A DNA stretch of 64,000 bases from an uncultured Oscillospiraceae bacterium (GTDB lineage: Bacteria > Bacillota > Clostridia > Oscillospirales > Oscillospiraceae), in the NCBI GenBank assembly GCA_947169975.1, contig CAMVRT010000002.1, positions 1-64,000 of the forward strand. The letters run 5' to 3'. Position numbers and translations under genes: made by a program. The stretch's first letter is position 1; each line of letters starts with the position of its first letter. This document shows, piece by piece, positions 2,237-22,751 of the stretch. The notes under the pieces were generated by a model. It made no database searches, was not told the DNA's origin, and worked only from the letters and a program-made list of their open reading frames with translations.

Positions 2237-3631
2237 TTGAGCAAACTGAGATTTCTGCTGGCGCTGTGGATGGCCAAGCTGTCCATTCCGGCGCTGAAGA
2301 TCACCCGCCACCAGGGCACCGACTTCCCCGGTCAGCTGGCACTGAAGCTCTGCCCCGATCTGCTGAAATACATGGGCCGGCCCAAAACCGTTATCGCCGT
2401 CACCGGCACCAACGGCAAGACCACCGTCAGCAACATCATCACCGATATTCTGGAGGCCTCCGGCAAGAAGGTCATGGGCAACCGGGCCGGCGCCAACATC
2501 CTCTCCGGCATCTCCACCGCCTTCATCCGCTCCTGCAATCTCTTTGGACAGATCAAGGGCTATGACGTGGCCATTCTGGAGGTGGACGAGCGCTCCTCTC
2601 CCCGGGTCTATCCCTATGTAAAGCCGGACTACGTGGTCATTACCAACCTGTTCCAGGACTCCATCATGCGCAACGGTCACCCCGGCTACATCGCCGAGCT
2701 GATCACCCGCTCCCTCCCTGCCGGAGCCAAGATGATCCTCAACGCCGACGAGATGATCTCCGGCGGCGTGAGCCCGGAGAATCCCCGGGTCTATTTCGGC
2801 ATCGGCCCTATGGACACCGACGTGACCGAGTGCATCAACCTGCTCAACGACATGCGCATCTGCCCCAAGTGTGCCGGCAAGCTGCGCTATGAATATCTGC
2901 GCTATCACCACGTGGGCAAGGCCGTGTGCTGCGACTGCGGCTTCTCCTCCCCGGAGAGCGACTATCTGGCCCAGAACGTGGACTTCGCCGGCAAGACCAT
3001 GGAGGTCCGGGAGGGCGGCCAGGTCTACGCCTATCCCCTCATCACCGACAACGTGTTCAACGTGTACAATATGATCGCCGCCATCGCCCTGCTGCGTCAG
3101 CTGGGCATGACCCACGAGGAGCTGGCGGGCTATATGGGCAAGACAACCATTCTGGCCAGCCGTCACAGCGAAGAACATGTGGGGCAAGTCAATCTGATCC
3201 GCCAGATGTCCAAGGAGAACAACTCCATGGCGGGCTCCCGTGCGCTGGACTACGTCACCGGACGGCCCGGCCGCAAGGAGCTGATCTTCATGATGAACAG
3301 CCTCAGCGACACCGGCGCATGGTCGGAGAACACCGCGTGGCTCTTCGACACCGACTTCGAGTTCCTGAACAAGGAGGACGTGGCCAAGGTCATCTGCACC
3401 GGGCCCCGGTTCATGGACTACCGGCTGCGGCTGCTGATGGCCGGCATTCCCGAGGACCGCATCGTGTGCATCGAGGACGAAAACGACGCACCGGACCACC
3501 TGACCTACGCCCCCGGCGACGACATCTACCTGCTCTACGGCACCGACTCGCTGGAGCAGGCCCAGAAGGTCTATGAGAAGATCAAGCGCCTGGCGCTGGC
3601 GCACAGCGACGGAAAGGAGGCACAGGCATGA
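2237..3631 (+). CDS. murT: Lipid II isoglutaminyl synthase, Mur-ligase subunit MurT
   Basis: ATP-dependent ligase subunit that amidates the alpha-carboxyl of D-Glu in lipid II, at the inner face of the membrane, using ammonia delivered by GatD. It has the Mur ligase P-loop AVTGTNGKTT (about residues 53-62). A four-cysteine zinc ribbon typical of MurT (CPKC then CCDC) lies near residues 212-236, and the C-terminal MurT domain (DUF1727) is present. It starts with TTG at 2237, supported by AAAGGAG 9 nt upstream. The last four bases overlap the start of the GatD gene, so the subunits are translationally coupled. 464 residues is slightly longer than the S. aureus protein. The ligase looks intact, in contrast to its partner. 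Confidence 0.92.
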   Translation: MSKLRFLLALWMAKLSIPALKITRHQGTDFPGQLALKLCPDLLKYMGRPKTVIAVTGTNGKTTVSNIITDILEASGKKVMGNRAGANILSGISTAFIRSCNLFGQIKGYDVAILEVDERSSPRVYPYVKPDYVVITNLFQDSIMRNGHPGYIAELITRSLPAGAKMILNADEMISGGVSPENPRVYFGIGPMDTDVTECINLLNDMRICPKCAGKLRYEYLRYHHVGKAVCCDCGFSSPESDYLAQNVDFAGKTMEVREGGQVYAYPLITDNVFNVYNMIAAIALLRQLGMTHEELAGYMGKTTILASRHSEEHVGQVNLIRQMSKENNSMAGSRALDYVTGRPGRKELIFMMNSLSDTGAWSENTAWLFDTDFEFLNKEDVAKVICTGPRFMDYRLRLLMAGIPEDRIVCIEDENDAPDHLTYAPGDDIYLLYGTDSLEQAQKVYEKIKRLALAHSDGKEAQA

Positions 3632-4350
3632 GAGTCGAAGTTCTGTTTCCCGAGGTCTGTAACCTCTTCGGCGATCTGGCCAACATCCGCTATCTCAAGA
3701 AATGCTGCCCGGACATGGAGATCATTGAGACCGGACTGAAGTCACGTCCCGTGTTTCTGGACGAGCCGGTGGAGCTGGTCTACATGGGCTCCACCACCGA
3801 GCGTGGTCTGGGACTGGTGATCGACGCGCTGCGGCCCGTCCGGGACGAGCTGATCGCCCGGATCGACGCAGGACAGCTGATGCTGGTCACCGGCAACACC
3901 ATGGACGTGCTGGGCAAAACCATCCGCTCCGACTGGGGCGTGGATCTGGAGGGTCTGGGCCTGTTTGACGCTCACGCCGAGTACAGGATGCTCAAGCGTC
4001 ACAACAGCATGTTCCTGGGAACCTTCGGCGACATGGAGATCGTGGGCTTCAAGAGCCTGTTCGGCCTCACCACCGTGGGCGAGGACGCCAACGCTCTGTT
4101 CACCACCGTCCGGGGCTTCGGCCGGGGCGGCAGCGTGGGCGAGGTAAAGGAGGAGGGCTTCCAGCGGGGCGGCCTGATGGCCACCTATCTCATCGGCCCG
4201 CTGCTGCCCATGAATCCCCCGTTCACCAAATATCTGCTGCGGCAGATGGGGGCCGACGACGCCCTGGCCTTCGAGGACGTGGCCATGGAGGCCTATCGCC
4301 GCCGTGTGGCGGAGTTCCACAGTCCCGCCTTTGACCCGGTGTATCATTGA
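3628..4350 (+). CDS. gatD: GatD-like subunit lacking the glutaminase catalytic residues
   Basis: By position, length (240 residues) and fold this is the class I glutamine amidotransferase-like subunit of lipid II isoglutaminyl synthase. The line-up with S. aureus GatD is clear: VTGNTMDVLGKTI corresponds to the nucleophile segment ICGGYQFLGKKY, and ATYLIGPLLPMNP corresponds to GTYLHGPILPKN. The catalytic Cys is therefore Thr and the catalytic His is Ile. The surrounding framework (LEGLGLFD, VGFKS, GPLLPMNP) is conserved and the frame is open, so it is not an obvious pseudogene. I infer that it cannot hydrolyse glutamine and may be a structural or ammonia-handling partner of MurT. ATG overlaps the end of murT; a terminator follows. 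Confidence 0.88.
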   Translation: MRVEVLFPEVCNLFGDLANIRYLKKCCPDMEIIETGLKSRPVFLDEPVELVYMGSTTERGLGLVIDALRPVRDELIARIDAGQLMLVTGNTMDVLGKTIRSDWGVDLEGLGLFDAHAEYRMLKRHNSMFLGTFGDMEIVGFKSLFGLTTVGEDANALFTTVRGFGRGGSVGEVKEEGFQRGGLMATYLIGPLLPMNPPFTKYLLRQMGADDALAFEDVAMEAYRRRVAEFHSPAFDPVYH

Positions 4351-4365
4351 TAAGCTGTCATTCCA

Positions 4366-4398
4366 AAGAAAAGGCCGCCCGGTGGGCGGTCTTTTCTT
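4366..4398 (+). terminator. Intrinsic terminator after murT-gatD
   Basis: CCGCCC-GGT-GGGCGG stem, extended by A-rich and T-rich arms and followed by TCTTTTCTT. It starts 15 nt after the gatD-like stop codon. Confidence 0.85.
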
Positions 4399-4400
4399 CG

Positions 4401-4468
4401 GGAATCCGTTTCTTTTTGTACAGTGAGAACGGATCGCCGCGGCCCCGTTGGGGCCTCGCGATGACATA
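4401..4468. repeat. Probable dispersed palindromic intergenic repeat
   Basis: The region contains two nested inverted repeats: ATCCGTT...AACGGAT, then GGCCCC-GTT-GGGGCC inside an imperfect ATCGC/GCGAT arm, ending GCGATGACAT. It lies between two converging terminators and codes for nothing. The layout resembles short repeats that I remember from intergenic regions of Oscillospiraceae genomes. No second copy was noticed in this window, so the repeat status is inferred. Confidence 0.4.
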
Positions 4469-4472
4469 ATCG

Positions 4473-4510
4473 CAAAAAAGAAAGCGCCCCGGCGGGGCGC
4501 TTCCTTTTTA
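4473..4510 (-). terminator. Bidirectional-looking terminator downstream of por
   Basis: GCGCCCC-GGC-GGGGCGC stem flanked by an A-rich run on the left and a T-rich run on the right. On the minus strand it follows the por stop codon by about 20 nt and ends in a T-rich stretch. Confidence 0.85.
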
Positions 4511-4529
4511 TGCATTTGGCTCTTTTCCC

Positions 4530-7500
4530 TTAGCCCTTGTACATATCCACCAGCTTCAGCAGGTGCTCGTAGCGGGCCTTGGCCTCCTCCTCGTTGCGCT
4601 CGAACAGGACGTCGGCGCGCTCGGGGAACTCGCGGGTCAGACGGGAGTAGCGGGCCTCGTTCATCAGGAACTCCTGATAGCCGCCGGCAGGGGCCTTGGA
4701 GTCCAGCGTGAACTTCTGCTCGGCCTCGGGATTGTAGCGGAACAGGTTCCAGTAGCCGCAATCCACCGCGCGCTTCATCTCCTTCTGGCAGTTCATCATG
4801 CCGCCCTTGATGGAGTGCATCTCGCAGGGGGAGTAGCCGACGATCAGAGACGGGCCGTGATAGGCCTCGGCCTCGGTGATGGCCTTGATGGTCTGAGCGG
4901 GGTTGGCGCCCATGGCCACCTGAGCCACGTACACGTAGCCGTACTGCATGGCGATCTCGGTGAGGCTCTTCTTCTTGACCTCCTTACCGGCGGCGGCAAA
5001 CTGTGCCACCTGGCCGATGTTGGAGGCCTTGGAGGCCTGGCCGCCGGTGTTGGAGTAGACCTCGGTGTCGAAGACGAAGATGTTCACGTCCTGCTTGGAG
5101 GCGATGACGTGATCCAGTCCGCCGTAGCCGATGTCGTAAGCCCAACCGTCGCCGCCGAAGATCCACATGCTCTTCTTGCGCAGGTAGTCCTTCTTGGCCA
5201 GAATGGCGCGGCCCAGCGTGCAGGCGGGGCAGGGGCACTCAGGCATGACGTTCTCCTCCAGCGCCTTGACGTAGGCGTCGGTGGCTTCGCCGTTGGCGTT
5301 GCCGTCGTTCATGGTATCCAGCCACTTCTGGGCGGCTTCCTTCAGCTCGGCAACGGTCATGGGCTGGGCGATCAGCTCGCGAGTCATGTCAGCCAGATCG
5401 TCGCGGATCTTCTGCTGGCCGATCATCAGGCCCAGGCCGTGCTCGGCGTTGTCCTCAAACAGGGAGTTGACCCAAGCGGGGCCCTTGCCCTCCTTGTTGG
5501 TGCAGTAGGGAGAGGTGGAGGCAGGACCGCCCCAGATGGAGGAGCAGCCGGTGGCGTTGGAGATATACATATGATCACCGAACAGCTGGGTGACGAGACG
5601 GGCATAGCTGGTCTCGGCGCAGCCGGCGCAGGAGCCGGAGAACTCCAGCATGGGCTGCTTGAACTGGCTGCCCTTGACGGTGTTGTCCTGCATATCCTTC
5701 TTGTCGGCGACCTTGGCCACGCAGTAGTTGAACACGTCCTGCTGAGGCAGCTCGCCCTCCTGGCTGACCATAGCCAGAGCGTTCACCGGGCAGGCGCCCA
5801 CGCAGACGCCGCAGCCCATGCAGTCCAGCGGGCTGATGGCCATGGTGAACTTGTACACGCCCTTGCCCTTGCCGGCCTTGACGTCCACGATCTTGGCAGC
5901 CTCGGGAGCGGCAGCGGCCTCGGCCTCGGTGAGCGCGTAAGGACGGATGGTGGCGTGGGGGCAGACGTAAGCGCACTGGTTGCACTGGATGCACTTGGTG
6001 GAATCCCAGGTGGGAACGGACACGGCAACGCCGCGCTTCTCATAGGCGGCGGCGCCCAGCTCGAACTGGCCGTCCACGTGATCCACGAAAGCGGACACGG
6101 GCAGGCTGTCGCCGTCCATCTTGCCCACGGGATCCAGAATGGTGGAGACCATCTTCACCAGCTCGGGCTTGCCCTCGCGCTTCACGGCGGGCTTGTTGTC
6201 CTCGGCAGTGGCCCAGTCGGCGGGCACGTCGATCTTCTTGAAGGCGGTGGCGCCCAGATCGATGGCCTTGTAGTTCATGTCCACGATGTCCTGGCCCTTC
6301 TTCAGGTAGGACTTCTTGGCAGCTTCCTTCATGTAGCCGATGGCCTCCTCCTGGGGCATGACCTTGGCCAGAGTGAAGAAAGCGGACTGGAGGATGGTGT
6401 TGTTGCGCTTGCCCATACCGATCTCCAGCGCCAGATCAATGGCGTTGATGGTATAGAGCTGGATGTTGTTCTGAGCGATGTAGCGCTTGGAAGCGGCATC
6501 CATGTGGTGGTTCAGCTCGTCGAAATCCCACTGGCAGTTGATCATGTACACGCCGCCGGGCTTGACGTCCTGTACCATCTTGAAGCCCTTGGTCACGTAG
6601 CTGGGGTTGTGGCAGGCCACAAAGTCAGCCTTGTTGATGTAGTAGGGGCTGCGGATGGGCTTGTCACCGAAGCGCAGATGGCTGATGGTGACGCCGCCGG
6701 TCTTCTTGGAGTCGTACTGGAAGTAGGCCTGAACATACTTGTCGGTGTGGTCGCCGATGATCTTGATGGAGTTCTTGTTGGCGCCAACGGTACCGTCGCC
6801 GCCCAGACCCCAGAACTTGCACTCGATGGTGCCCTCAGCAGCGGTGTTGGGGCAGTTCTTGTCCTCGGGCAGGCTTAGGTTGGTGACGTCGTCCACGATG
6901 CCGATGGTGAACTGACGCTTCATGTTCTCGCGCTTGAGCTCCTCATAGACAGCGAACACGGAGGCAGGAGGCGTATCCTTGCTGCCCAGACCGTAACGGC
7001 CGCCGATGACCTTGATGTCGTTCTTGCCGGCGTTGGCCAGAGCGGTGACAACATCCTGATACAGAGGCTCGCCCATGGCGCCGGGCTCCTTGGTGCGGTC
7101 CAGCACGGCGATGCGCTTGGCGGTGGCGGGGATGGCGGCGATCAGCTTCTCGGGGCAGAAGGGACGGTACAGGCGGACCTTCACCAGGCCCACCTTCTCG
7201 CCGTGGGCGTTCAGATAGTCGATGACTTCCTCGGCCACGTCGCAGATGGAGCCCATGGTGATGATGACGCGGTCAGCGTCGGGCGCGCCGTAGTAGTTGA
7301 ACAGCTGATAGTTGGTGCCCAGCTTCTCGTTGATTTTGCCCATGTACTTCTCCACCACGGCGGGCAGAGCCTGGTAGTACTTGTTGCAGGCCTCACGGTG
7401 CTGGAAGAAAATATCACCGTTCTCGTGGCTGCCGCGCATGTGGGGATGCTCGGGGTTCAGGGCGTGGGCGCGGAACTCGGCCACAGCGTCCATGTCGCAC

Positions 7501-9925: not shown

Positions 9926-11113
9926 ATGCACGAGATCATCCTGTGCAAGCTGGGCGAGGTGGTCCTGAAGGGCCTGAACCGCCACAGCTTCGAGTCCAAG
10001 CTCATGAGCAATATCCGCCGCCGCACCAACCGGTTCGGCCGCTTCAAGGTCTATTCCCGCCAGAGCACCATCTATGTGGAGCCTATGGAGGACGGCTGCG
10101 ACATGGACGGCGCCTATGACGCCTGCGCCAAGGTCTTCGGCATCATCGCCATCGCCCGGGCCATGCCCTGCGAGAAGACCAGGGAGGCCATCTTCGAGAA
10201 TGCCCGCACCTATCTGGGCAAGGCGCTGACGGAGGCCAAATCCTTCAAGGTGGAGACAAAGCGGGCCGACAAGAGCTTCCCCATGAGCTCCATCCAGCTG
10301 AGCCAGTGGGTGGGCGGCGCACTCCACGACGCCTTCCCCCATCTGACGGTGGACGTCCACCACCCGGAGCTCACCGTTCACATCGAGATCCGGGAGGACG
10401 CGGCCTACGTCCACGCCCCCTCCGAGAGCGCCGCCGGCGGATTGCCTATCGGCATGGGCGGCAGCGCCGTGAGCCTGCTCTCCGGCGGCATCGACTCCCC
10501 GGTGTCCTCCTACATGATCGCCAAGCGGGGCGTGCAGCTGGAGATGATCCACTTTGCCTCGCCCCCCTACACCAGCCAGATGGCCCGGGACAAGGTGCTG
10601 CAGCTGGCAAAGGAGCTCACCCCCTGGACCGGGCGGCTCAACGTGTACGTGATCCCCTTCACCGAGATCCAGGAGGAGATCCGCCGCAAGTGCCCGGAGG
10701 ATCACTTCACCCTCATCATGCGCCGGTTTATGATGCGCCTTGCCGATCAGCTGGCCCGGGAGCTCCACTGCGGCGCTCTCGTCACCGGCGAAAATCTGGG
10801 GCAGGTGGCCAGCCAGACCATGGGCGCCCTGCGGGTCAGCCAGGACGTCACCGACCTGCCCATCCTGCGGCCCCTGATCGGCATGGACAAGGAGGAGATC
10901 GTCCGCCTGGCCCGGAAGATCGGCACCTTCGACACCTCCATCCTGCCCTATGAGGACTGCTGCACCGTGTTTACCCCCCGCCATCCCAAGACCAAGCCCA
11001 ACGTGGAGGAGGTCCGGGAGATGGAGGCCGTTCTGGACGTGGAGGGTCTGTGCAGGCGTGCTATGGAAGGCAAGGAGCTGGTGAAAATCAAGTACTACGA
11101 CAAGGAGAACTGA
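9926..11113 (+). CDS. thiI: tRNA uracil 4-sulfurtransferase ThiI
   Basis: Makes 4-thiouridine at position 8 of tRNA and can donate sulfur to thiamine thiazole synthesis; works with a cysteine desulfurase in the cytoplasm. N-terminal ferredoxin-like and THUMP domains (about residues 1-165) precede the PP-loop SGGIDSPVSSYM near residue 190. A conserved cysteine pair lies in EDCCTVFTPRHPKTKP. The protein ends without the rhodanese domain found in E. coli ThiI, as is usual in Firmicutes, so persulfide transfer must use another route. Start ATG has AAGGAGAA upstream. cinA follows after 4 nt. Confidence 0.93.
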   Translation: MHEIILCKLGEVVLKGLNRHSFESKLMSNIRRRTNRFGRFKVYSRQSTIYVEPMEDGCDMDGAYDACAKVFGIIAIARAMPCEKTREAIFENARTYLGKALTEAKSFKVETKRADKSFPMSSIQLSQWVGGALHDAFPHLTVDVHHPELTVHIEIREDAAYVHAPSESAAGGLPIGMGGSAVSLLSGGIDSPVSSYMIAKRGVQLEMIHFASPPYTSQMARDKVLQLAKELTPWTGRLNVYVIPFTEIQEEIRRKCPEDHFTLIMRRFMMRLADQLARELHCGALVTGENLGQVASQTMGALRVSQDVTDLPILRPLIGMDKEEIVRLARKIGTFDTSILPYEDCCTVFTPRHPKTKPNVEEVREMEAVLDVEGLCRRAMEGKELVKIKYYDKEN

Positions 11114-11117
11114 TCCC

Positions 11118-12371
11118 ATGTCCTATCGCGCGGAAATCATCGCCGTGGGCACAGAGCTGCTGCTGGGGAACATCGCCAACACCGACGCGCAATTTCTCTC
11201 GGAGCAGCTCTCGTCCGTTGGCGTGGACGTGCTGTACCACACCGCCGTGGGCGACAACCCGGGTAGGCTGGCGGAGGTCATCGACATCGCCCGCCGCCGC
11301 TGCGACCTGCTGATCTTCACCGGCGGCCTCGGCCCCACCTACGACGACCTCACCAAGGAGACCGTGTGCCGGGCCTTCGGCGTGGAGCTGGAATTCCATC
11401 CGGAGATCATCGGGGAGATCCGCCGCTATCTCGACACCGTGTTCGGCGCCGAGGCGCCCAAGCTGGACGAACAGCAGGCCTATCTGCCGGAGGGCTGCGC
11501 CGTGCTCCACAACGCCGTGGGCACCGCGCCCGGCTGCATCTTTGAAAAGGACGGCGTCACCGTTGTCATGCTGCCCGGCGTGCCCCGGGAGTGCCGCTAT
11601 CTCACGGAGCACGGGCTGATCCCGTGGCTGCGGGAGAGGCACGGCGGCGTGATACTGTCCCACGACCTGCGGACCTTCGGTCTGCGGGAGCCCATCGTGC
11701 AGGAAATGCTGGCCGATCTGATGGACGAGGCCGTGAACCCCTCCCTGGCCCCCTACGCCAAAACCGGCGAGGTGATGCTGCGGCTCACCGCCAAGGGCGA
11801 AACGGCGGAGGAATGTGAGGAGCTGATGGCTCCGCTCTTCTGGGACGTGCGCGCCAGATTGGGCGAGTACCTCTACGGCGTGGACGTGGACAGTCTGGAG
11901 CAGCGCTCGGTGCAGCTGCTGAAGGAGCGGCATCTCACCTTCTCCGCCGCCGAGAGCTGCACCGGCGGTCTCATCGCCAAGCGCGTCACCGATGTACCCG
12001 GAGCCTCCGCCGTCTTTATGGGCGGCGTGGTGTCCTACACCAACGGCGTCAAGGCCAAGGTGCTGGGCGTGCCCGAGGTGCTTCTGGAGCAGTACGGCGC
12101 CGTGTCTGCTCCCGTGGCAAAAGCCATGGCGGAGGGCGTGCGGCGCATCACCGGCAGTGATCTGGCCGTGTCCGTCACCGGTGTGGCCGGACCGGACAAA
12201 GACGACCGGGGCAACGAGGTGGGCACCGTGTTCATCGGCTTTGCCGCCCCGGAGGAGACCACTGTCCGGGAGCTTCACCTCGGCACCGGGCGGGAGCGTG
12301 TGCGCACCCTGGCCGCCCACCACGCATTCGACATACTGCGCCGGTATCTCACCGGACTTCCCATTGAATAA
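11118..12371 (+). CDS. cinA: CinA family protein with nicotinamide-nucleotide amidohydrolase domain
   Basis: Two-domain protein. The N-terminal molybdopterin-binding-like domain (residues 1-170; VGTELLLGNIANTDAQFLSE, FTGGLGPTYDDLTKE) corresponds to the COG1058 pyrophosphatase region. The C-terminal PncC domain (about 255-415; SAAESCTGGLIAKRVTDVPG, SVTGVAGPD) deamidates nicotinamide mononucleotide for NAD recycling in family members studied. 417 residues is full length. It starts 4 nt after thiI, pointing to an operon. The small membrane protein at 12388 follows. Confidence 0.92.
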   Translation: MSYRAEIIAVGTELLLGNIANTDAQFLSEQLSSVGVDVLYHTAVGDNPGRLAEVIDIARRRCDLLIFTGGLGPTYDDLTKETVCRAFGVELEFHPEIIGEIRRYLDTVFGAEAPKLDEQQAYLPEGCAVLHNAVGTAPGCIFEKDGVTVVMLPGVPRECRYLTEHGLIPWLRERHGGVILSHDLRTFGLREPIVQEMLADLMDEAVNPSLAPYAKTGEVMLRLTAKGETAEECEELMAPLFWDVRARLGEYLYGVDVDSLEQRSVQLLKERHLTFSAAESCTGGLIAKRVTDVPGASAVFMGGVVSYTNGVKAKVLGVPEVLLEQYGAVSAPVAKAMAEGVRRITGSDLAVSVTGVAGPDKDDRGNEVGTVFIGFAAPEETTVRELHLGTGRERVRTLAAHHAFDILRRYLTGLPIE

Positions 12372-12387
12372 AAAAGGAGAGGATCAC

Positions 12388-12861
12388 ATGGCAAAGAACA
12401 CGTATAAGGGCTACAATCCTGCGGATTTCACCCAGCAGCAGGAGAATATCCGCAAGGCCAAGGGTAACCCCAACAAAAACATCCACCACAAGAAGAACGG
12501 CTCCAACTACGGCGGCTACGCCAGCGCCGCCAAAAAGAAGGCCGAGCGCGTGGCGCCGCCGGAGCGGAAGCGGGAGTCCATCTTCGATATGAACCGCACC
12601 CAGTGGATCGTCTTCGCCGTGCTGATCGTTGCGGCGGCGGTGGGTGTGATCCTGTCCAACACCGCGCTGAAGGACACTGCACCCGCCCGCTATCTGCCCT
12701 CCGTGGCGATGGGCGTCCCCTGCTGCTTCCTGGCCTACGTGGGCTTCACCAACCGCGACAAGAAACACACCGCCATCCAGACCGTCCTGCTGGTGGTGCT
12801 GGCTCTGTGCGGTCTGTACGCCCTGCTGGGCCTGATGGGTCTAATCGGCCTGCTGGGCTGA
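12388..12861 (+). CDS. Small membrane protein, basic N-terminus (unrecognised)
   Basis: 157 residues. The first 65 residues are hydrophilic and rich in Lys, Asn and Gly (NPNKNIHHKKNGSNYGGYAS), likely cytoplasmic. Three hydrophobic segments follow at about residues 72-88 (QWIVFAVLIVAAAVGVIL), 100-117 and 128-157, the last rich in Leu and Gly. I do not recognise the family. The start ATG has AAGGAGAGG upstream and lies 16 nt after the cinA stop, so it may be the last gene of the comM-thiI-cinA group. No enzymatic motif is visible. Confidence 0.75.
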   Translation: MAKNTYKGYNPADFTQQQENIRKAKGNPNKNIHHKKNGSNYGGYASAAKKKAERVAPPERKRESIFDMNRTQWIVFAVLIVAAAVGVILSNTALKDTAPARYLPSVAMGVPCCFLAYVGFTNRDKKHTAIQTVLLVVLALCGLYALLGLMGLIGLLG

Positions 12862-12904
12862 GCGTAAAATCCGCCGTTGACAAATCTGCCCGAAACGCAT
12901 AAAA

Positions 12905-13184
12905 TAGGAGCGTTATGATGCACAAATGCGAGGATGGGGACGAGTAGCGCCCTGACGCGGTGCCAAGAGAGCCGCCGTTTGGTGAAAGGCGGACACCGCG
13001 CGAGCGCGAAGATCACCCCGGAGCAGCCGGCTGAAAGATACAGTAAGCCGGGACGGGAGCGCCCGTTACAGCGCCGTTCCCTGATTCGGGGACATGAGCG
13101 GCCGCCCGCGGGCGGCAACGAGAGTGGTACCGCAGAGGTCATTTTTGCCTTTGTCTCTCTTTTTGGAGGGACAAAGGCTTTTTT
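12905..13184 (+). promoter_or_regulatory. T-box leader controlling ileS
   Basis: The 5' leader has the expected T-box order. A stem I base starts GCGAGGATGGGGACGAGTAG, the apical motifs include AAGAGAGCCGCC and GGTGAAAGGCGG, and a putative specifier ATC (Ile) sits in GAAGATCAC at about 13010. The T-box sequence AGAGTGGTACCGCAG (13120-13134) precedes a strong terminator. Uncharged tRNA-Ile should bind and allow read-through into ileS. The specifier position is my reading; the T-box sequence and the downstream ileS are clear. Confidence 0.9.
13147..13184 (+). terminator. T-box regulated terminator
   Basis: GCCTTTGTC and GACAAAGGC form the stem, followed by TTTTTT. It lies 13 nt after the T-box sequence and 40 nt before the ileS start. 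Confidence 0.85.
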
Positions 13185-13223
13185 ATTTGCTTTCAAAAAT
13201 CAACCATAGATGGAGGAAACGAC

Positions 13224-16028
13224 ATGGAGTACAAAAAGACGCTGAACATGCCCAAGAGCGGCTTTCCCATGCGGGCAGGTCTGCCCATGCGGGAGCCGGA
13301 CATGCTCTCCCGCTGGCAGGACATGGACCTGTATCACGAGCTGCTGAAGAAGAACGACGGCAAGCCCCTCTTCTCCCTGCACGACGGCCCCCCGTTCTCC
13401 AACGGCAACATCCACATGGGCCACGCCCTGAACAAGGCGCTGAAGGACTTTATCGTCCGCAGCTACGCCATGCGGGGCTACTACACCCCCTATATCCCCG
13501 GTTGGGACAACCACGGCATGCCCATCGAGAGCGCCATCATCAAGGAGCAGAAGCTGAACCACAAGGCCATGTCCACCTCCGACTTCCGCAGCGCCTGCCA
13601 CGACTACGCCGAGAAGTACATTCAGCTGCAGATGGCCGGCTTCAAGCGCATGGGCGTGGTGGCGGACTGGGAGCACCCCTACCGCACCATGGACAAGGGC
13701 TTTGAGGCCCGTGAGGTCAAGGTTTTCGGCCAGATGTACAAGAAGGGCTATATCTACAAGGGTCTCAAGCCCGTGTACTGGTGCCCCAAGGACGAGACGG
13801 CTCTGGCCGAGGCGGAGATCGAGTACCATGACGATCCCTGCACCACCGTCTACGTCAAGTTCCCCATGCACGACGACCAGGGCAAGCTGGGCCATCTGGA
13901 CCACAGCAAGCTCTACTTCGTGATCTGGACCACCACCATCTGGACCCTGCCCGGCAACCTGGCCATCGCCATGAACCCGGTGGAGCCCTACGCTGTGGTG
14001 AAGGCCCCCAACGGCGAGATGTATATCATGGCCGAGGCCCTGACCGAGAAGGTCATGAAGATCGGCGGCTTTGACAGCTGGGAGATCGTGGAGACCCACC
14101 CCGGCAGCTTCTATGAGAACATGCTGGCCGACCATCCCTTCCTGCCCAAGACCTCCCGCCTGGTGCTGGCCGACTACGTCACCATGGATTCCGGTACCGG
14201 CTGCGTCCACACCGCACCCGGCTTCGGCGCCGACGACTATCAGACCTGCATGCGCTACGGCATGGACATGGTGGTGCCCGTGGATGATCGCGGCCGCCAC
14301 ACCGACTACGCCGGCAAGTACGCCGGTCTCAGCACCGAGGAGTCCAATCCCGTGATCCTGGCGGATATGAAAGCCGCCGGCTCCCTGTTCGCCAGCGAGG
14401 ACATCATCCACAGCTACCCCCACTGCTGGCGCTGCAAGCACCCCATCATCTTCCGCGCCACCCCCCAGTGGTTCTGCTCCGTGGAGGCCTTCAAGGATGC
14501 TGCCACCGCCGCCTGCGAGGACGTGCGCTGGCTGCCCGCCTGGGGCGAGGACCGCATCAAGGCCATGATCGCCGAGCGCAACGACTGGTGCATCAGCCGT
14601 CAGCGCCGCTGGGGCCTGCCCATCCCCGTGTTCTACTGCAAGTGCTGCGGCAAGCCCGTCTGCACCGATGAGACCATCAATGCCGTGTCTGCCGTCTTTG
14701 AGGAGAAGGGCTCCAACGCCTGGTTCGACATGACCGCCGAGGAACTGCTGCCCAGCGGCTTTACCTGCCCCCACTGCGGCAAGTCCGGCGGCTTCGAGAA
14801 GGAGACCGACACCCTGGACGGCTGGTTTGACTCCGGCTCCACCCACTACTGCGCCATGGAGCGCGATCAGGGCTTCTGGCCCGCCACCATGTACATTGAA
14901 GGCGCCGACCAGTACCGCGGCTGGTTCCAGTCCTCCCTGCTGGTGGCCGTGGGCGCTCTGGGCCGCACCGCTCCTTTCAAGGAGTGCCTGACCCACGGCT
15001 GGACCGTGGACGGCGAGGGCAAGGCCATGCACAAGTCTCTGGGCAACGGCGTGGACCCCAACGAGGTCATCAAGAAGTACGGAGCGGACCTGCTGCGTCT
15101 GTGGGCCGGCAGCGCCGACTACCGGGTGGACGTCCGCTGCAGCGACGACATCTTCAAGCAGCTGAGCCAGAATTATCTGAAGTTCCGCAACACCTGCAAA
15201 TTCTGCCTGGACAATCTGGTGGACTTCGATCCCAACAACCTGGTCGCTCCCGCCGATATGCTGGAGCTGGACCGCTGGGCCGTCACCCGACTGAACGGTC
15301 TGATCCGGAAGGTGTTTGCCGCCTATGACGACTATGAGTTCCACACCATCACCCACGCCGTCAACGACTTCTGTGTGGTGGATCTCAGCTCCTTCTACTT
15401 CGATATCATCAAGGATCGCCTGTACTGCGACGAGGCCGAGGGTCTCAGCCGCCGCAGCGCCCAGACCGCCATCTTCCTGATCCTGGATGCCATGACCCGG
15501 TTCTTCGCCCCCATCCTGTCCTTCACCTGCGATGAGATCTGGCAGGTCATGCCCCACCGCGCCGGTGACGACGGCCGCAACGTGCTGCTCAATGAGATGG
15601 TGCAGCCCTATGCCGAATACGCGCTGGACGAGGAAACCATGGTCCGCTGGGCTTCACTGATCCAGCTTCGCAATGCTGTCAATGTCGCTTTGGAGCAGGC
15701 CCGCGCCGACAAGCGGATCGGCAAATCTCTGGAGGCTCATGTGACGGTAGTCGCCCTGGGCGATGAGCTGGCACTGCGCAAGCAGTTTGAGGGCCAGTGG
15801 GCGGATCTGTTCATCGTGTCCGACGTGGAGGTCAGCGCCGATCCCGACCTGTACGCCCAGGCCGCCGAGACGTCCATCGACGACGTCCGGATCCTGGTCA
15901 GCGAGGCCAAGGGCGAAAAGTGCGGACGCTGCTGGAAGCACCATCCGCTGGTGGGCGCCAACGCCGATTATCCCGATCTCTGCCCCCGCTGCGCCGCCGT
16001 GGTGGCAAAATTGCCCGTCATCGAATAA
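13224..16028 (+). CDS. ileS: Isoleucyl-tRNA synthetase
   Basis: Charges tRNA-Ile with isoleucine and edits valine. Class I signatures are present: GNIHMGHALNK (HIGH motif, near residue 60) and KAMHKSLGN (KMSKS motif, with His in place of the third residue). The editing CP1 domain includes SGTGCVHTAPGFGADD. The C-terminal zinc finger is CGRCWKHH followed by CPRC. 934 residues is full length for the bacterial type. RBS TGGAGGAAAC precedes the ATG. Regulation by the T-box upstream is strongly indicated. Confidence 0.97.
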   Translation: MEYKKTLNMPKSGFPMRAGLPMREPDMLSRWQDMDLYHELLKKNDGKPLFSLHDGPPFSNGNIHMGHALNKALKDFIVRSYAMRGYYTPYIPGWDNHGMPIESAIIKEQKLNHKAMSTSDFRSACHDYAEKYIQLQMAGFKRMGVVADWEHPYRTMDKGFEAREVKVFGQMYKKGYIYKGLKPVYWCPKDETALAEAEIEYHDDPCTTVYVKFPMHDDQGKLGHLDHSKLYFVIWTTTIWTLPGNLAIAMNPVEPYAVVKAPNGEMYIMAEALTEKVMKIGGFDSWEIVETHPGSFYENMLADHPFLPKTSRLVLADYVTMDSGTGCVHTAPGFGADDYQTCMRYGMDMVVPVDDRGRHTDYAGKYAGLSTEESNPVILADMKAAGSLFASEDIIHSYPHCWRCKHPIIFRATPQWFCSVEAFKDAATAACEDVRWLPAWGEDRIKAMIAERNDWCISRQRRWGLPIPVFYCKCCGKPVCTDETINAVSAVFEEKGSNAWFDMTAEELLPSGFTCPHCGKSGGFEKETDTLDGWFDSGSTHYCAMERDQGFWPATMYIEGADQYRGWFQSSLLVAVGALGRTAPFKECLTHGWTVDGEGKAMHKSLGNGVDPNEVIKKYGADLLRLWAGSADYRVDVRCSDDIFKQLSQNYLKFRNTCKFCLDNLVDFDPNNLVAPADMLELDRWAVTRLNGLIRKVFAAYDDYEFHTITHAVNDFCVVDLSSFYFDIIKDRLYCDEAEGLSRRSAQTAIFLILDAMTRFFAPILSFTCDEIWQVMPHRAGDDGRNVLLNEMVQPYAEYALDEETMVRWASLIQLRNAVNVALEQARADKRIGKSLEAHVTVVALGDELALRKQFEGQWADLFIVSDVEVSADPDLYAQAAETSIDDVRILVSEAKGEKCGRCWKHHPLVGANADYPDLCPRCAAVVAKLPVIE

Positions 16029-17965: not shown

Positions 17966-18670
17966 ATGTATTGTGTCAAATGCGGTGTGGAGCTGCAAAA
18001 GGGCGTGGAGCGCTGCCCTCTCTGCGGCCTGACCGTCTATCATCCCGAGCTGACAGAGACCCCGGAGCCCCGCCCTTATCCCCGGTATGCCGAGGGCGGC
18101 GAAACCGTGCGCCACGGCGGACTGCTGTTCGTGCTGACGGTGCTCTTTGCCGTGCCGGTGCTGGTGTGCATCGTCATGGATCTGAACATGAATCACGGCA
18201 TCCGCTGGAGCGGCTTCGTGGCCTTCGGTCTGCTGTGGGCCTACGTGGCCGTATGCCTGCCCCTGTGGTTCCGGCGGCGCAGTCCCACGGTCTTCTTCCC
18301 CATTATTATGGCGGCGGGACTGGGTGTGGCGCTGTACGTCTGTCTGAAAACCGGCGGGCGGTGGTTCTTGCCTTTGGCCTTCCCCGTGGGCGGCGCCGTG
18401 ACGCTGCTGGGGGAGACGGTCATCGTGCTGCTGCGCCACGCGGTGGGAGCGCACCGCCACCGGGCGCTGTTCGTATTCGGCGGGGCGTTCATCGCCGCAG
18501 GCGGGCTTTGCATGCTCATTGAGTTCCTGCTCCATGTGACCTTTGCCCTGCCCATGCAGTGGTGGTGTCTCTACCCCCTGTCTGCCCTGGGTCTGATCGG
18601 GCTGATGCTCATCGTCATCGGCATCTGCGCGCCGCTGCGCGCGTCCCTGCACAAAAAATTCTTCATCTGA
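17966..18670 (+). CDS. Zinc-ribbon membrane protein (DUF6320-like)
   Basis: 234 residues. The N-terminus is a rubredoxin-like zinc ribbon, MYCVKCGVELQKGVERCPLC, with both CxxC pairs. After a short linker there are about six hydrophobic segments, for example LLFVLTVLFAVPVLVCIVM, SGFVAFGLLWAYVAVCLPLW and LIGLMLIVIGICAPL. The C-terminus is short and basic. The naming as DUF6320 is from memory. It probably forms a membrane partner for the acyltransferase encoded 12 nt upstream. A terminator follows directly. Confidence 0.75.
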   Translation: MYCVKCGVELQKGVERCPLCGLTVYHPELTETPEPRPYPRYAEGGETVRHGGLLFVLTVLFAVPVLVCIVMDLNMNHGIRWSGFVAFGLLWAYVAVCLPLWFRRRSPTVFFPIIMAAGLGVALYVCLKTGGRWFLPLAFPVGGAVTLLGETVIVLLRHAVGAHRHRALFVFGGAFIAAGGLCMLIEFLLHVTFALPMQWWCLYPLSALGLIGLMLIVIGICAPLRASLHKKFFI

Positions 18671-18674
18671 CACG

Positions 18675-18702
18675 AAAAAGGCGCCCACAGGCGCCTTTTT
18701 TT
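18675..18702 (+). terminator. Terminator after the acyltransferase pair
   Basis: AAAAAGGCGCC-CACA-GGCGCCTTTTTTT, 5 nt after the stop codon; strong symmetric hairpin. Confidence 0.9.
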
Positions 18703-18724
18703 GCCGAACCGAAAAATATCCGGC

Positions 18725-18755
18725 TGAAAAACCTGTCTATAGGAGTAAAGGGCTC
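18725..18755 (+). promoter_or_regulatory. Possible ECF-type autoregulatory promoter
   Basis: TGAAAAACCT (18725-18734) resembles the AAC-centred -35 element of ECF promoters. GGCTC lies 16 bp further on at the -10 position. It sits 30 bp before the sigma factor gene, where an autoregulated promoter is expected. The -10 match is weak. Confidence 0.25.
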
Positions 18756-18784
18756 TTTTCAGAAAACGAGAGAGGAGGCGGCAC

Positions 18785-19342
18785 ATGGAGGATTCCCGGA
18801 TCGTGGAGCTGTACTGGCGGCGGGACGAGAGCGCCATTGCCGAAACGCAGCGGAAATACGGCGGCTTCTGCTATACCGTCGCCCGGAATATCCTGTCCGA
18901 CCGGCAGGACGCCGAGGAGTGCGTCAGCGACACCTGGCTGCGCGCCTGGAATGCCATGCCGCCCCAGCGCCCCCGACTGCTGCGTCCGTGGCTGGGCAAG
19001 GTGGTGCGGAATCTGGCCATCAACCGCTGGGAGAAAAACCGCGCCCAGAAGCGCTACAGCGGCGTGGAACTCCTTCTGGATGAGCTGGCCGACGCTATCC
19101 CCTCTCCCCAGACGTTGGAAAAGCATATGGAGGCGGAGGAGCTGGGCGCGCTTATCAGCGCGTGGCTGAGAGGGCTGGACAGCGACGACCGGACGCTGTT
19201 CCTCCGCCGCTACTGGAACGGAGAATCGCTGAAGGAGCTGGCAAGGCTGTTGGGCGAGAGTCCCGGTCGGCTGGCCCAGCGGACGTACCGCCTGCGCATG
19301 GCGCTGAAGGCGGAATTGGAAAGGAACGGTGTATCCCTATGA
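18785..19342 (+). CDS. ECF-type RNA polymerase sigma factor
   Basis: 185 residues. Region 2 is visible in RILSDRQDAEECVSDTWLRAWN-like spacing (ILSDRQDAEECVSDTWLRAW, near residues 37-56). Region 4 with its helix-turn-helix is near residues 135-180 (RRYWNGESLKELARLLGESP). Regions 1.1 and 3 are absent, as in ECF factors. The TGA stop overlaps the ATG of the next gene, which encodes a membrane-anchored serpin. That overlap is the arrangement normally seen for a sigma factor and its membrane-bound anti-sigma factor. Confidence 0.88.
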   Translation: MEDSRIVELYWRRDESAIAETQRKYGGFCYTVARNILSDRQDAEECVSDTWLRAWNAMPPQRPRLLRPWLGKVVRNLAINRWEKNRAQKRYSGVELLLDELADAIPSPQTLEKHMEAEELGALISAWLRGLDSDDRTLFLRRYWNGESLKELARLLGESPGRLAQRTYRLRMALKAELERNGVSL

Positions 19343-20868
19343 AAGATGAACGCAGCAGGAAGCTGTACGACGGCATTACCAATGTAGATGACGAACTGGT
19401 GGAGGAGGCTCAGGCGGACAAATCCCGGCACAACCGGACGTGGCTCAAGTGGGCGGCGCTGGCCGCCTGTCTGGTGATCGTGGCGGCGGGCGCGATCAAA
19501 CTGTGGCCCTCCCGCGCCCCGACGCAGCAGCAGGAGCCGGGTACGCAGCAGGAGCCGGGTACGCAGCAGGAGCCGGGTACGCAGGAGGAACACGAGCCTT
19601 CACCACCGCCGGATACCATCGAGCCGTATGAGCCCATCTGCTTCCAGCTGGCCGGACCGGCGTACCCGGGGGTGGTTCCCTACCCCGGAGAGAATGCAGA
19701 CAGCCAGGCATATGAGTTGTGGGCGGACTATCTCCGTTCCCTGCGGGAGCGGCCCACCGGCTACAAAAACGGACTGGACGGTTATCTCGCCGAGAGCACT
19801 GTGCAGTTTCTCTCCGGCGCGGGGACGGAAAACCGGGTCTATTCCCCGCTGAACGTGTATATGGCGCTGGCCATGCTGGCAGAGATCACCGACGGAGACA
19901 GCCGCCAGCAGCTTTTGGATTTGTTGGGTTCAGACAGCATCGAGAGCCTCCGCGACCAGGCCCATGCCGTATTTGAAGCCAGCTATCGGGACGATGGTCT
20001 GGTCACCACCGTGCTGAGCAACTCCCTTTGGCTGCGGAACGACATGACGTACAGCCAGACCGCCGCGGACACGTTGGCGGAGCAGTATTACGCCTTTACC
20101 TTCCGGGGCGAGATGGGATCGGACGAATATAACAAAATGCTGCGCGACTGGCTCAGCTCCCAGACCGGCGGATTGCTGGACGACTATATCAACGACGTGG
20201 AGTTGTCCCCGGAGACCGTTCTGGCTCTGGCCTCCACCGTCTACTATAAGGCCGGATGGGCCGACGAGTTCTTCGAGGGAGGCACCTCCCCCGATGTATT
20301 CCACGCCACGGACGGCGACGTGGAGCGGGACTTCATGCACCAGACCCGGGAGGGTACCGTGTACCGGGGCGACGGCTTCACCGCCGTGTCCAAGCGCATG
20401 CACGAGGGCGGCTGGATGTGGCTGATCCTGCCCGACGAGGGCACTGACGTGAACGCCGTTCTGGCCGGGGATATGATGCCCTTCCTGTTGAACGGCGGAA
20501 CCGGCGCCTCGCAGGGCTATTACAACGTCCACCTGTCCCTGCCGAAGTTCGACGTGTCCTCCCGGATGGATCTGGCAGACGGACTTTGCGCACTGGGCGT
20601 GACGGACGTGTTTGGCAGCACCGCTGATTTTACCCCCATCACCGACGGCGAAGGCGTCTTCGTGGACAAGGTGGAGCACGCCGCCCGGGTCACTGTGGAC
20701 GAAGAGGGCGTGGAGGCCGCAGCCTACACGGTGATTCCCGCACCGGGCGCTGCGCCTCCGGGCGATGAGCCGGAGGACTACTACTTTACCCTGAACCGCC
20801 CATTCCTGTTCGCCATCACCGGCACCGACGGCCTGCCCCTGTTCGTGGGCGTGGTAAATCAGCCCTGA
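19339..20868 (+). CDS. Membrane-anchored serpin, probable sigma-factor partner
   Basis: 509 residues with three parts. Residues 1-34 are cytoplasmic (LYDGITNVDDELVEEAQADK), residues 35-55 are a single membrane helix (WAALAACLVIVAAGAIKLW), residues 60-100 are a QEPGT-repeat and Pro-rich linker. From about 135 to the end there is a full serpin: NRVYSPLNVYMALAMLAEIT, LPKFDVSSRMDLADGL, hinge DEEGVEAAAYT and the closing NRPFLFAITGTDGLPLFVGV. The hinge has the small residues needed for loop insertion, so it should be inhibitory. By count, the scissile bond falls near an Ala-Ala in IPAPGAAPP, pointing to elastase-like targets, but this is tentative because the loop is longer than in alpha-1-antitrypsin. 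Coupled to the sigma gene by ATGA. Gut-commensal Clostridia are known to make secreted serpins; the anti-sigma role is my inference. Confidence 0.85.
   Translation: MKDERSRKLYDGITNVDDELVEEAQADKSRHNRTWLKWAALAACLVIVAAGAIKLWPSRAPTQQQEPGTQQEPGTQQEPGTQEEHEPSPPPDTIEPYEPICFQLAGPAYPGVVPYPGENADSQAYELWADYLRSLRERPTGYKNGLDGYLAESTVQFLSGAGTENRVYSPLNVYMALAMLAEITDGDSRQQLLDLLGSDSIESLRDQAHAVFEASYRDDGLVTTVLSNSLWLRNDMTYSQTAADTLAEQYYAFTFRGEMGSDEYNKMLRDWLSSQTGGLLDDYINDVELSPETVLALASTVYYKAGWADEFFEGGTSPDVFHATDGDVERDFMHQTREGTVYRGDGFTAVSKRMHEGGWMWLILPDEGTDVNAVLAGDMMPFLLNGGTGASQGYYNVHLSLPKFDVSSRMDLADGLCALGVTDVFGSTADFTPITDGEGVFVDKVEHAARVTVDEEGVEAAAYTVIPAPGAAPPGDEPEDYYFTLNRPFLFAITGTDGLPLFVGVVNQP
19528..19584 (+). repeat. 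18-bp tandem repeat coding for QEPGTQ
   Basis: About three copies of ACGCAGCAGGAGCCGGGT inside the serpin gene, coding for the flexible linker between the membrane helix and the serpin domain. The near identity suggests that linker length may vary by slippage. Confidence 0.8.
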
Positions 20869-20884
20869 CAAGGAGGTGCGCTCG

Positions 20885-21553
20885 ATGAAAAAGATTCTAT
20901 CCCTTCTGCTTGCCCTGTTCGTCTGCCTCGGCGCGACCGGCTGCGGAAGCAAAAGGCCGGAGGCCGCGCCTTCCGGATCGGTTGAGAGCCAAGCAGATCG
21001 CCAGGCAGATGACCAAACGGACGACCAGACGGATGACCAGGCGGAAAAAACGCGGGATTTCCCGGAGGATCTGGCCGCGTTCTTCCGGGAAAACGGGATT
21101 GAGGGTCTGGAATTCTGGATCCTGCAGGACGCGAAGGACTGTGACTTCTCCGGCTGTACGAATGACCCCTACGTGCTGGGATCACAGGGCGCGTATTACG
21201 GCAGGAAATATGATATCACACCCACAGGGGAGTCGGATCTTTCGACGCCGTTCGTCGAGTATTTCCTCGGCTGCTGGCCGGATCTTTCTGACAAAGAGGT
21301 ATACGTAACCGATATCCATATCACGGATCCTGACGTCAGAATCTACGGATTGAGCCTTGAGAACACCCTGGCGGAGTGGCGGGAGACACTCACCGGAAAG
21401 GGCTATTCCTGCGTGAGAGACTATGAGGGTTACCGTGCGGACATGATCGCCGTTTCTCCCGACGGCACCTACATCATTTGCCTTAACTCCCATTCGCGCA
21501 GCATCAGCGTGATTGCGCCGAGCACGAACAGAGAAGGGATCTGCAACGACTGA
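20885..21553 (+). CDS. Secreted lipoprotein (unrecognised), third gene of the sigma/serpin unit
   Basis: 222 residues. A lipoprotein signal is clear (KKILSLLLALFVCLGATGC, lipidated Cys20). It is followed by an acidic, repetitive spacer (QADDQTDDQTDDQ) and a folded domain of about 170 residues with several Cys (DAKDCDFSGCTNDPYVLGS). I do not recognise the domain. The ATG at 20885 has AGGAGGT 7 nt upstream and starts 16 nt after the serpin gene, so all three genes are probably one transcript. It may be an output or sensor component of the same system. Confidence 0.75.
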   Translation: MKKILSLLLALFVCLGATGCGSKRPEAAPSGSVESQADRQADDQTDDQTDDQAEKTRDFPEDLAAFFRENGIEGLEFWILQDAKDCDFSGCTNDPYVLGSQGAYYGRKYDITPTGESDLSTPFVEYFLGCWPDLSDKEVYVTDIHITDPDVRIYGLSLENTLAEWRETLTGKGYSCVRDYEGYRADMIAVSPDGTYIICLNSHSRSISVIAPSTNREGICND

Positions 21554-21630
21554 CCGCAGGCGCTGTCAATCAAACGTAACGCCGAGGTGACCAACGAGCA
21601 GGGGATCGTGTTTTGACACCCCGATAAACA

Positions 21631-21671
21631 AAAAACGGAGCGTGAACGGTTTTCGTTCACGCTCCGCGTTT
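21631..21671. terminator. Bidirectional terminator between lipoprotein and CPBP genes
   Basis: CGGAGCGTGAACG and CGTTCACGCTCCG form a 13-bp stem, with AAAAA on the left and GTTT on the right. It serves the converging genes on both sides. Confidence 0.8.
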
Positions 21672-21683
21672 ATGCCATAACAG

Positions 21684-22751
21684 TTATTGGATGTTCAGCA
21701 CGATGCTGGCGGCGCAGAGGACAGCAAACAGGATCATGCCCACGTTGATCCAGACGGTGGAGAAGCGCTGCCCGCGGGGCAGCTCCAGCGGCGCGCTTTG
21801 GAAGCGCACCCGGCGGCCCTTGACGATCAGCAGCACCAGACCCGCGATCACAGCGCCGAAGATCGCAGCGGTGTAGAGATAATAGGCTGCCAGGCCCAGC
21901 ATCTGCAAAGCGGTCAGATCCGCCGCGTTGGCGGCTCCCGTCTTCTCCATGGCCTCCAGACCCGGGGTGGCCCAGTGGAGGATCTCCACCGACAGCACGC
22001 CGAAGAAGAAGTTGACGATCATGTGCAGCCCCACCGTGTAGCGCAGCTTGCCGGTGCGCAGGTACACCCAGCCGAACACCAGCCCCAGGGTAAAGGCGTA
22101 GAACATCTGGGAGATGTTGCCGTGGAACAGGCCGAACATCGCCGCGGAGGTCACCACCGCCAGCTTCTCGCCATAGGGGCGCATGCGGTCGATAAGCGTC
22201 TTGCGGAAAACGAACTCCTCGATGAGCGGCGCCAGGATCACCATGAACAGTATGCGCAGCAGCAGTGACTCATCCTCGGCAAAGGTCTCGATGGGGTTGA
22301 CCGCCTCGAGGCCCAGCAGCACCCGAATCAGCTCCTGCACCGTGAGGCCGATCATGTTGCCGGCCTGCATCACAAAGACGCAGATGAGGATGATGCAGAA
22401 ATAGCGGCCCACGGTCATGGGGCCTTGTTCCGGCGGCATGGCAGGCGCCCTGCGAGCCACCAGCACCCCCGCGGGGATGCCCACCAGATAGAGCGGGGCA
22501 AAGCCCATCAGCCACATGCTGTAAGGCCAGCTCCGCCAGCCGGGAGCTGCCCGCTCCAGCACGGCCGCCAGGATCAGCTGCACAGCTGAAGACAGCACCA
22601 GCACCAGCGTGACGCCGATCCCCAGCCGGGAAAAGATCGCTCTGGCTCTGCGGCGATCCGGTGCGGGCAGTTGGCTCTCGCCGACCGGCTCCGGCCGGAT
22701 GCCGGGATCCGTATGTCCGGTCATATTCATCTCGTTGGGTTCAAATTCCAT
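21684..22751 (-). CDS. CPBP family intramembrane metalloprotease
   Basis: 355 residues with about eight hydrophobic segments. The CPBP (CAAX protease and bacteriocin-processing) motifs are present: EEFVFRKTL near residue 190 (EExxxR), then FGLFHGNISQMFYAF and GLHMIVNFFFG with the conserved His residues. These are the putative zinc ligands of this glutamic-type or metal-dependent membrane protease. Family roles include peptide maturation and bacteriocin self-immunity; the substrate here cannot be told. The cytoplasmic N-terminus of about 40 residues is polar. It is a single gene. Confidence 0.85.
   Translation of the reverse strand: MEFEPNEMNMTGHTDPGIRPEPVGESQLPAPDRRRARAIFSRLGIGVTLVLVLSSAVQLILAAVLERAAPGWRSWPYSMWLMGFAPLYLVGIPAGVLVARRAPAMPPEQGPMTVGRYFCIILICVFVMQAGNMIGLTVQELIRVLLGLEAVNPIETFAEDESLLLRILFMVILAPLIEEFVFRKTLIDRMRPYGEKLAVVTSAAMFGLFHGNISQMFYAFTLGLVFGWVYLRTGKLRYTVGLHMIVNFFFGVLSVEILHWATPGLEAMEKTGAANAADLTALQMLGLAAYYLYTAAIFGAVIAGLVLLIVKGRRVRFQSAPLELPRGQRFSTVWINVGMILFAVLCAASIVLNIQ

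Follow-up and report, generated by a model that had tools for sequence, protein, structure and literature searches.

In the window analysed here, a stretch of 64,000 nucleotides from an uncultured Oscillospiraceae bacterium (assembly GCA_947169975.1, contig CAMVRT010000002.1, positions 1 to 64,000 of the forward strand), the gene of an ECF sigma factor overlaps with that of a membrane-anchored serpin. We lean towards a reading in which both proteins form an ECF sigma/membrane anti-sigma pair with an inhibitory serpin as its outer sensing half, attack on the serpin being the signal. Judged from the sequences, the sigma/anti-sigma pairing itself is highly probable. The sequence-based part of the argument comprises this pairing, the tail as a module, the correlation of tail and sigma distances, the promoter motif of the sigma group and the hinge features of the serpin. 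The steps that we infer, namely binding, inhibition of the sigma factor, a protease signal, a cleavage cascade and autoregulation at the window locus, would run as follows. At rest, the sigma factor would be kept at the membrane by the short tail; an elastase-like protease attacking the reactive loop would be trapped, with a change in the shape of the serpin; cleavage of the anti-sigma protein on the outer side (site 1) and within the membrane (site 2) would then follow, and the freed sigma factor would transcribe its own operon, yielding more sigma factor, serpin and lipoprotein.

All the features of the locus lie on the forward strand. The sigma factor gene (18785..19342, 185 aa) was recognized as an open reading frame with Pfam (Sigma70_r2 and r4_2) and NCBIfam matches, TIGR02937 scoring 83.4 bits against a cut-off of 42.9, and its product is an ECF factor (group 4). 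Its stop overlaps with the start (ATGA) of the anti-sigma-like serpin gene (19339..20868, 509 aa). An earlier note on this DNA had pointed out this overlap as well as the order of parts in the second protein, and both were found as described: a putative sigma-binding cytoplasmic tail (residues 1-34, 19339..19440; from the tail profile, the alignment, the distance correlations and a low-confidence model), a single membrane helix (residues 34-55, 19438..19503; from sequence and model), a stalk of QQEPGT repeats (residues 57-100, 19507..19638; from the sequence, the model being mostly of low confidence there) and a serpin domain (about residues 140-509, 19756..20865; from Pfam and fold comparison), with hinge and reactive centre loop at residues 455-485 (20701..20793). 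A lipoprotein-like gene (20885..21553) is the putative third gene of the operon; L121 and L122, the two nearest relatives, have a similar gene (51 bits) in the corresponding position and keep the neighbouring gene order. Further downstream, at 21684-22751, a CPBP-type membrane protease gene is oriented towards the operon and may be a candidate for the site-1 protease; L121 and L122 have related genes in the equivalent position, there joined to a longer membrane part. The site-2-protease family is present in the genome (PF02163, E 3.1e-58), a result concerning presence only, cleavage of the anchor being predicted.

The earlier note had asked whether the N-terminal tail is common to other sigma-linked membrane proteins, which proved to be the case. 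In fact, the motif was also found under other ectodomains, and the same sigma group lies directly upstream in 23/23 tail-only proteins with a full tail match, taken from the family-sample stretches and covering 20 of the 21 tail-only places of the family search. The tail is therefore supported, at the level of sequence, as a sigma-linked module. Because matches to the tail profile tend to run over into the membrane helix, only those beginning by model position 5 were accepted. Tail alignment matches occurred in 45/61 family genomes, many rows consisting of the membrane helix only; 68 tail rows, from 33 genomes, start no later than position 7, and 12 of these are typed serpins (hand count), within which the sigma neighbour was checked. 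A Pfam search of 20 tail-only proteins at E up to 0.05 left 15 without a match, the others being one alpha-2-macroglobulin, one weakly matching DUF3221 and three weak matches below the cut-off. The alpha-2-macroglobulin, another bait-and-trap protease inhibitor, is joined to the tail behind a gene of the sigma group (L110, G061:C20, 1728-6190) and is the only one of the four in the family sample to carry the tail. A class-wide search, with matches in 53/391 genomes, gave one alpha-2-macroglobulin row extending towards the tail (G404), where neither tail nor sigma factor was matched. The window's genome holds a second sigma/tail-protein pair, on contig C7. In L091, L093 and L106, a sigma gene and a tailed protein of unassigned ectodomain are followed on the same strand by one or two lipoprotein serpins.

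The connection between tail and sigma factor was also examined through pairwise distances at 67 serpin loci. Sigma and tail distances correlated with an r of 0.69, as against 0.30 for sigma and membrane helix and 0.30 for sigma and serpin; the values for tail and membrane helix (0.19) and for tail and serpin (0.36) were obtained at the same loci, together with a partial sigma-tail correlation, given the serpin, of 0.65. Tail distances reached 0.71 with the C-terminal half of the sigma factor and 0.51 with the N-terminal half, and with sigma distances over 0.4 only, the correlations were 0.50 for the tail, 0.10 for the helix and -0.03 for the serpin. Since the sigma-tail, sigma-serpin and tail-serpin permutation tests were all passed (0/2000 as high in each), only the correlation sizes discriminate, and these indicate that the tail follows a separate protein, the sigma factor, more closely than the remainder of its own chain, although the sigma-tail correlation may owe something to how closely the tail and sigma DNA are linked. 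In the available portion of a published study using a similar distance measure (PMC7406223), class I anti-sigma domains gave 0.82 and non-partners 0.5-0.6, absolute values not being comparable across sets. Sigma-tail mutual information peaked at 0.288, against a maximum of 0.321 in 12 shuffled pairings, so that no pair rose above the null; eight of the ten top pairs fall in sigma residues 125-161, which is a hint only.

Structure prediction gave two short helices for the tail (pLDDT about 57), which at about 34 residues is shorter than 50 aa, and the tail profile had no match at a meaningful E-value among solved chains. A read-through model of sigma factor and tail, the latter without alignment rows, gave no interface (tail block pLDDT 40-48, pTM 0.46); as the tail was modelled without confidence, no interface is claimed. 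Comparison of this model by VIA-align recovers sigma factors. Two fused sigma and tail alignments (A3, A4) placed the tail rows wrongly onto the sigma N-terminus and were set aside, the alignment with sigma rows alone (A6) being the one folded.

Upstream of the sigma gene, a terminator-like hairpin with a T run (18676..18705), read by eye and absent from the scan's list, separates it from the preceding gene. No sigma-70-type promoter was matched in 18550-21800 (0 matches vs 1.1 expected). When 89 regions upstream of genes of the sigma group were subjected to expectation maximisation, TTTGCGTCTATATAGGTG emerged, with a log-likelihood of 333 vs 51-56 in three mononucleotide shuffles, the search effort being unequal (14 starts and up to 60 rounds for the real set, 5 starts and up to 30 rounds for the shuffles). 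A -35-like TGTMAYATT, which played no part in finding the -10-like motif, lies at a fixed distance upstream of it, and the pair has, as read from the sequences, the layout of an ECF promoter, presumably resembling those of Bacillus. The motif exceeds the 1% null threshold (11.3 bits) in 52/91 sigma upstream regions and fails in 39/91, scored in-sample on its own learning sequences against mononucleotide shuffles; these 91 regions take in L041, whose neighbour protein is without the full tail. The putative promoter of the window, AATATC-N14-GTCTATA (18715..18741), was located with this motif from homologous upstream regions. At 10.1 bits it stays under the threshold, and the site is common to L121 (7.1) and L122 (7.0), which are also low. 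No other place in the genome matches it with fewer than 2 mismatches; at up to 2 mismatches there are 13 genome matches vs 31 for the reversed control.

Altogether, 145 distinct serpins were typed (window included), namely 67 from the family sample plus the named loci from the best 80 of 397 alignment matches, and they comprise 74 with tail A, 13 of type C and 50 lipoproteins. The criterion for type C is proximity to an ECF gene of another group (333-501 nt ahead of the serpin domain) and not a single common tail. Two fragments and seven duplicates were left out of the counts, four rows were untyped (L100, the first ORF of L133, the second serpin of L157, and L169), and assignment was by eye for 9 of the 50 lipoproteins and by hand for L152, which was moved to tail A. 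The sigma group of the window stands immediately upstream of 72/74 tail-A serpins, the exceptions being L077, where the serpin follows another one, and L085, an orphan. Start and stop overlap is possible in 78/94 sigma/tail-protein pairs. Among the 150 genomes of the family sample, 84 match the window protein at 1e-5, some through the tail alone, and two same-genus genomes have no match. The 112 serpin places in this sample (hand count) divide into 67 typed, 3 set aside and 42 left out, the last being mostly weaker matches, except for two on G093:C48. The 67 typed serpins include 29 with tail A, 27 of them with an adjoining sigma gene, 4 of type C, 1 membrane-anchored without sigma and 33 lipoproteins, and tail-A serpins occur in at least 24 of the 150 genomes (hand count). 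The earlier note had regarded its proposal as endangered if the serpin usually occurred without the sigma gene in relatives. Such an objection holds by half: 33/67 family serpins are of a sigma-linked type, and 34/67 are not.

The single-protein query against genome contigs gave no match, and the named loci come from the alignment query, from which the best 80 of 397 matches were kept: 45 tail A, 9 type C, 7 other and 17 lipoproteins, in records labelled Oscillospiraceae, Clostridia, Lachnospiraceae, Ruminococcus and others. This set (L121-L200) is biased towards tails because it was picked by similarity to tailed serpins. In the class sample of 291 genomes, 49 match at 1e-30; the 29 loci examined include one tail A with sigma (L224) and two with another N-terminus and an ECF gene overlapping upstream (L228, L229), L221 standing outside the sigma check as its contig ends there. 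In L228/L251 and L229, this other N-terminus with its membrane helix accompanies an ECF gene of a different group, probably a third sigma-linked type. At one further locus of the class sample (L234/L252), the tail occurs with a serpin broken into two reading frames, and upstream no sigma factor was matched; this copy (L252, 1964-3195) is a decaying or misassembled one. Other arrangements were also met with. In the window's own genome (L041, C24), the stretches 3241-7448 and 10443-14789 hold two neighbouring lipoprotein serpins and, within about 8 kb, a sigma gene (10443-10994) together with another sigma/anti-sigma-like pair. The serpins of L231, L233, L237, L242 and L246 stand behind repeats that seem to be of S-layer-homology type, a further possible way of surface anchoring, and L100 (768-4586) encodes a secreted-looking protein of 1273 aa with two serpin matches in one open frame.

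On the serpin tree (145 rows, LG+G4, short search), the tail-A label changes 18 times, at least 6 of them forced by starred branches, and type C changes 8 times, at least 5 forced. These repeated changes imply that sigma-linked N-termini were either acquired by the serpin on more than one occasion or lost from it several times, gain and loss of anchors being indistinguishable on this tree, and such exchange has placed the serpin on at least two different ECF groups. The sigma tree, with little support, mixes serpin and other ectodomains. A single clade of serpin-type sigma factors was not upheld (16 changes on 88 rows, 2 forced; 15/500 shuffles as low). AxA before the serpin fails to separate tailed from lipoprotein forms.

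As regards the serpin itself, the window protein has a complete serpin fold, and the hinge EEGVEAAAYT, which the earlier note called intact, carries P15 Gly and small P12-P10 residues, features kept in 73/74 tail-A, 13/13 type-C and 50/50 lipoprotein serpins. Found by counting, P1 is Ala471 in the window protein and Ala, Ser or Gly in 60/74 tail-A serpins, a small P1 being suited to elastase-like proteases. The variability of the P5-P3 columns lies in the 92nd-97th percentile in tail-A serpins and in the 71st-79th in lipoproteins. Inhibitory serpins have by consensus a small P9 and Thr or Ser at P14, a combination not found in the tail-A rows, where P9 is Tyr or Phe in 74/74 and P14 is Val or Cys in 72/74. 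These departures lower our confidence; nevertheless, odd loop positions are exposed after insertion, so that Tyr or Phe at P9 may be tolerated. With most inhibitor features present, the protease trap proposed earlier is upheld on the sequence side, and the window serpin is likely to be inhibitory. In L173 (6410-8041), the hinge of a tailed, sigma-linked serpin is degenerate, and an intact copy lies at the same locus.

A non-inhibitory serpin binding a ligand, like the hormone-carrier serpins, is very improbable here. Corticosteroid-binding globulin is among the best folds by Z, tied with cleaved PAI-1, and both the aromatic P9 and the hinge loss in L173 would agree with such a function, but the conserved P15 Gly and small P12-P10 residues speak against it, as do the best sequence matches among structures, conserpin and tengpin. 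It is also rather improbable that the serpin only shields the surface from proteases, its production being driven by the sigma factor, with the tail protein reporting another signal, such as membrane or envelope stress, and the state of the serpin being irrelevant. The separate lipoprotein serpin genes of L091, L093 and L106 would fit this explanation, as would the diverse ectodomains of the tail family with its small share of typed serpins; nevertheless, there would then be no need for serpins fused to N-termini that are linked with sigma factors of two or three ECF groups.

A more serious alternative, which we still consider unlikely, retains a true sigma/anti-sigma system and makes the disordered stalk its sensor. 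The serpin would guard the stalk until an excess of protease cut it, shedding the ectodomain and releasing the sigma factor, so that more serpin would be made. The QQEPGT stalk is in fact mostly disordered in the structure model, its length and sequence vary among relatives, and the same tail carries ectodomains of other kinds. However, the stretch from helix to serpin is short in several relatives (e.g. L042, L044, L063), and the recruitment of the serpin onto different tails is not explained by this alternative itself. The serpin as the sensing half, consumed by the protease that it reports, is the reading to which we incline.

Gut bacterial serpins are usually interpreted as shields, and the induction of a bifidobacterial serpin runs through a two-component system. 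If the present one also served an ECF circuit as receptor, elastase-type activity of host or microbial origin, as in inflammation, could be gauged by commensals at the cell surface and answered with more inhibitor, and an irreversible, stoichiometric type of sensor would be added to the known anti-sigma ectodomains. Tentatively, gut Clostridia may use suicide protease traps (serpins and, once, an alpha-2-macroglobulin) as extracellular sensors on sigma-linked tails of at least two, probably three, ECF groups, the irreversible consumption of the inhibitor being counted and answered by transcription of more inhibitor.

Among known systems, RsiV is the nearest precedent for an anti-sigma ectodomain binding a host enzyme, and RsgI for exchangeable ectodomains in Clostridia. 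The sigma I partner of RsgI is not an ECF factor, and the RsiV family also bears DUF3298. Unlike RsiV, the window protein has no DUF4179, neither this domain nor DUF3298 being among its Pfam matches, and the serpin is its sole match over the cut-off. As described in the accessible text on RsiV/sigma V of Bacillus subtilis (PMC6066255), a membrane anti-sigma factor likewise controls an ECF sigma factor, its ectodomain binds a host defence enzyme, lysozyme, and this binding opens a signal-peptidase site. The RsgI anti-sigma factors of cellulolytic Clostridia, like the tail family, sit in the membrane and carry sensing ectodomains that can be exchanged (CBMs, GHs), but they pair with sigma I and sense polysaccharides; in the portions available of these papers, serpins figure only as cellulosome or dockerin-bearing parts (PMC12484212, PMC3413522). 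The tail, in turn, falls short of the mark of more than 50 cytoplasmic aa given for class I anti-sigma domains (ASDI) in the available part of PMC7406223. The same source sets class II at less than 50 aa, with the first of the two helices of CnrY (Cupriavidus metallidurans) lying on sigma4 and the second on sigma2; the window tail is likewise short, two helices are predicted for it at low confidence, and its type occurs in Clostridia under swapped ectodomains.

The serpin domain is shared with the siropins of Eubacterium siraeum, conserpin, tengpin and miropin. The accessible text of the siropin paper and of a serpin review mentions no anti-sigma link (PMC5127057, PMC6718151), the review describing a bifidobacterial serpin induced by proteases. 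Among the papers listed, judged by title and abstract and with most subscription journals outside, no serpin or macroglobulin fused to an anti-sigma factor was found, and three papers with both words treat, in the text available, serpin and anti-sigma factor apart; this agrees, within these papers, with the earlier note, which regarded a serpin as the sensing half of an anti-sigma factor as not established. By analogy, the serpin-bearing anti-sigma-like protein would resemble anti-sigma factors of the RsiV and RsgI types, with the serpin as ectodomain appearing to be the new element.
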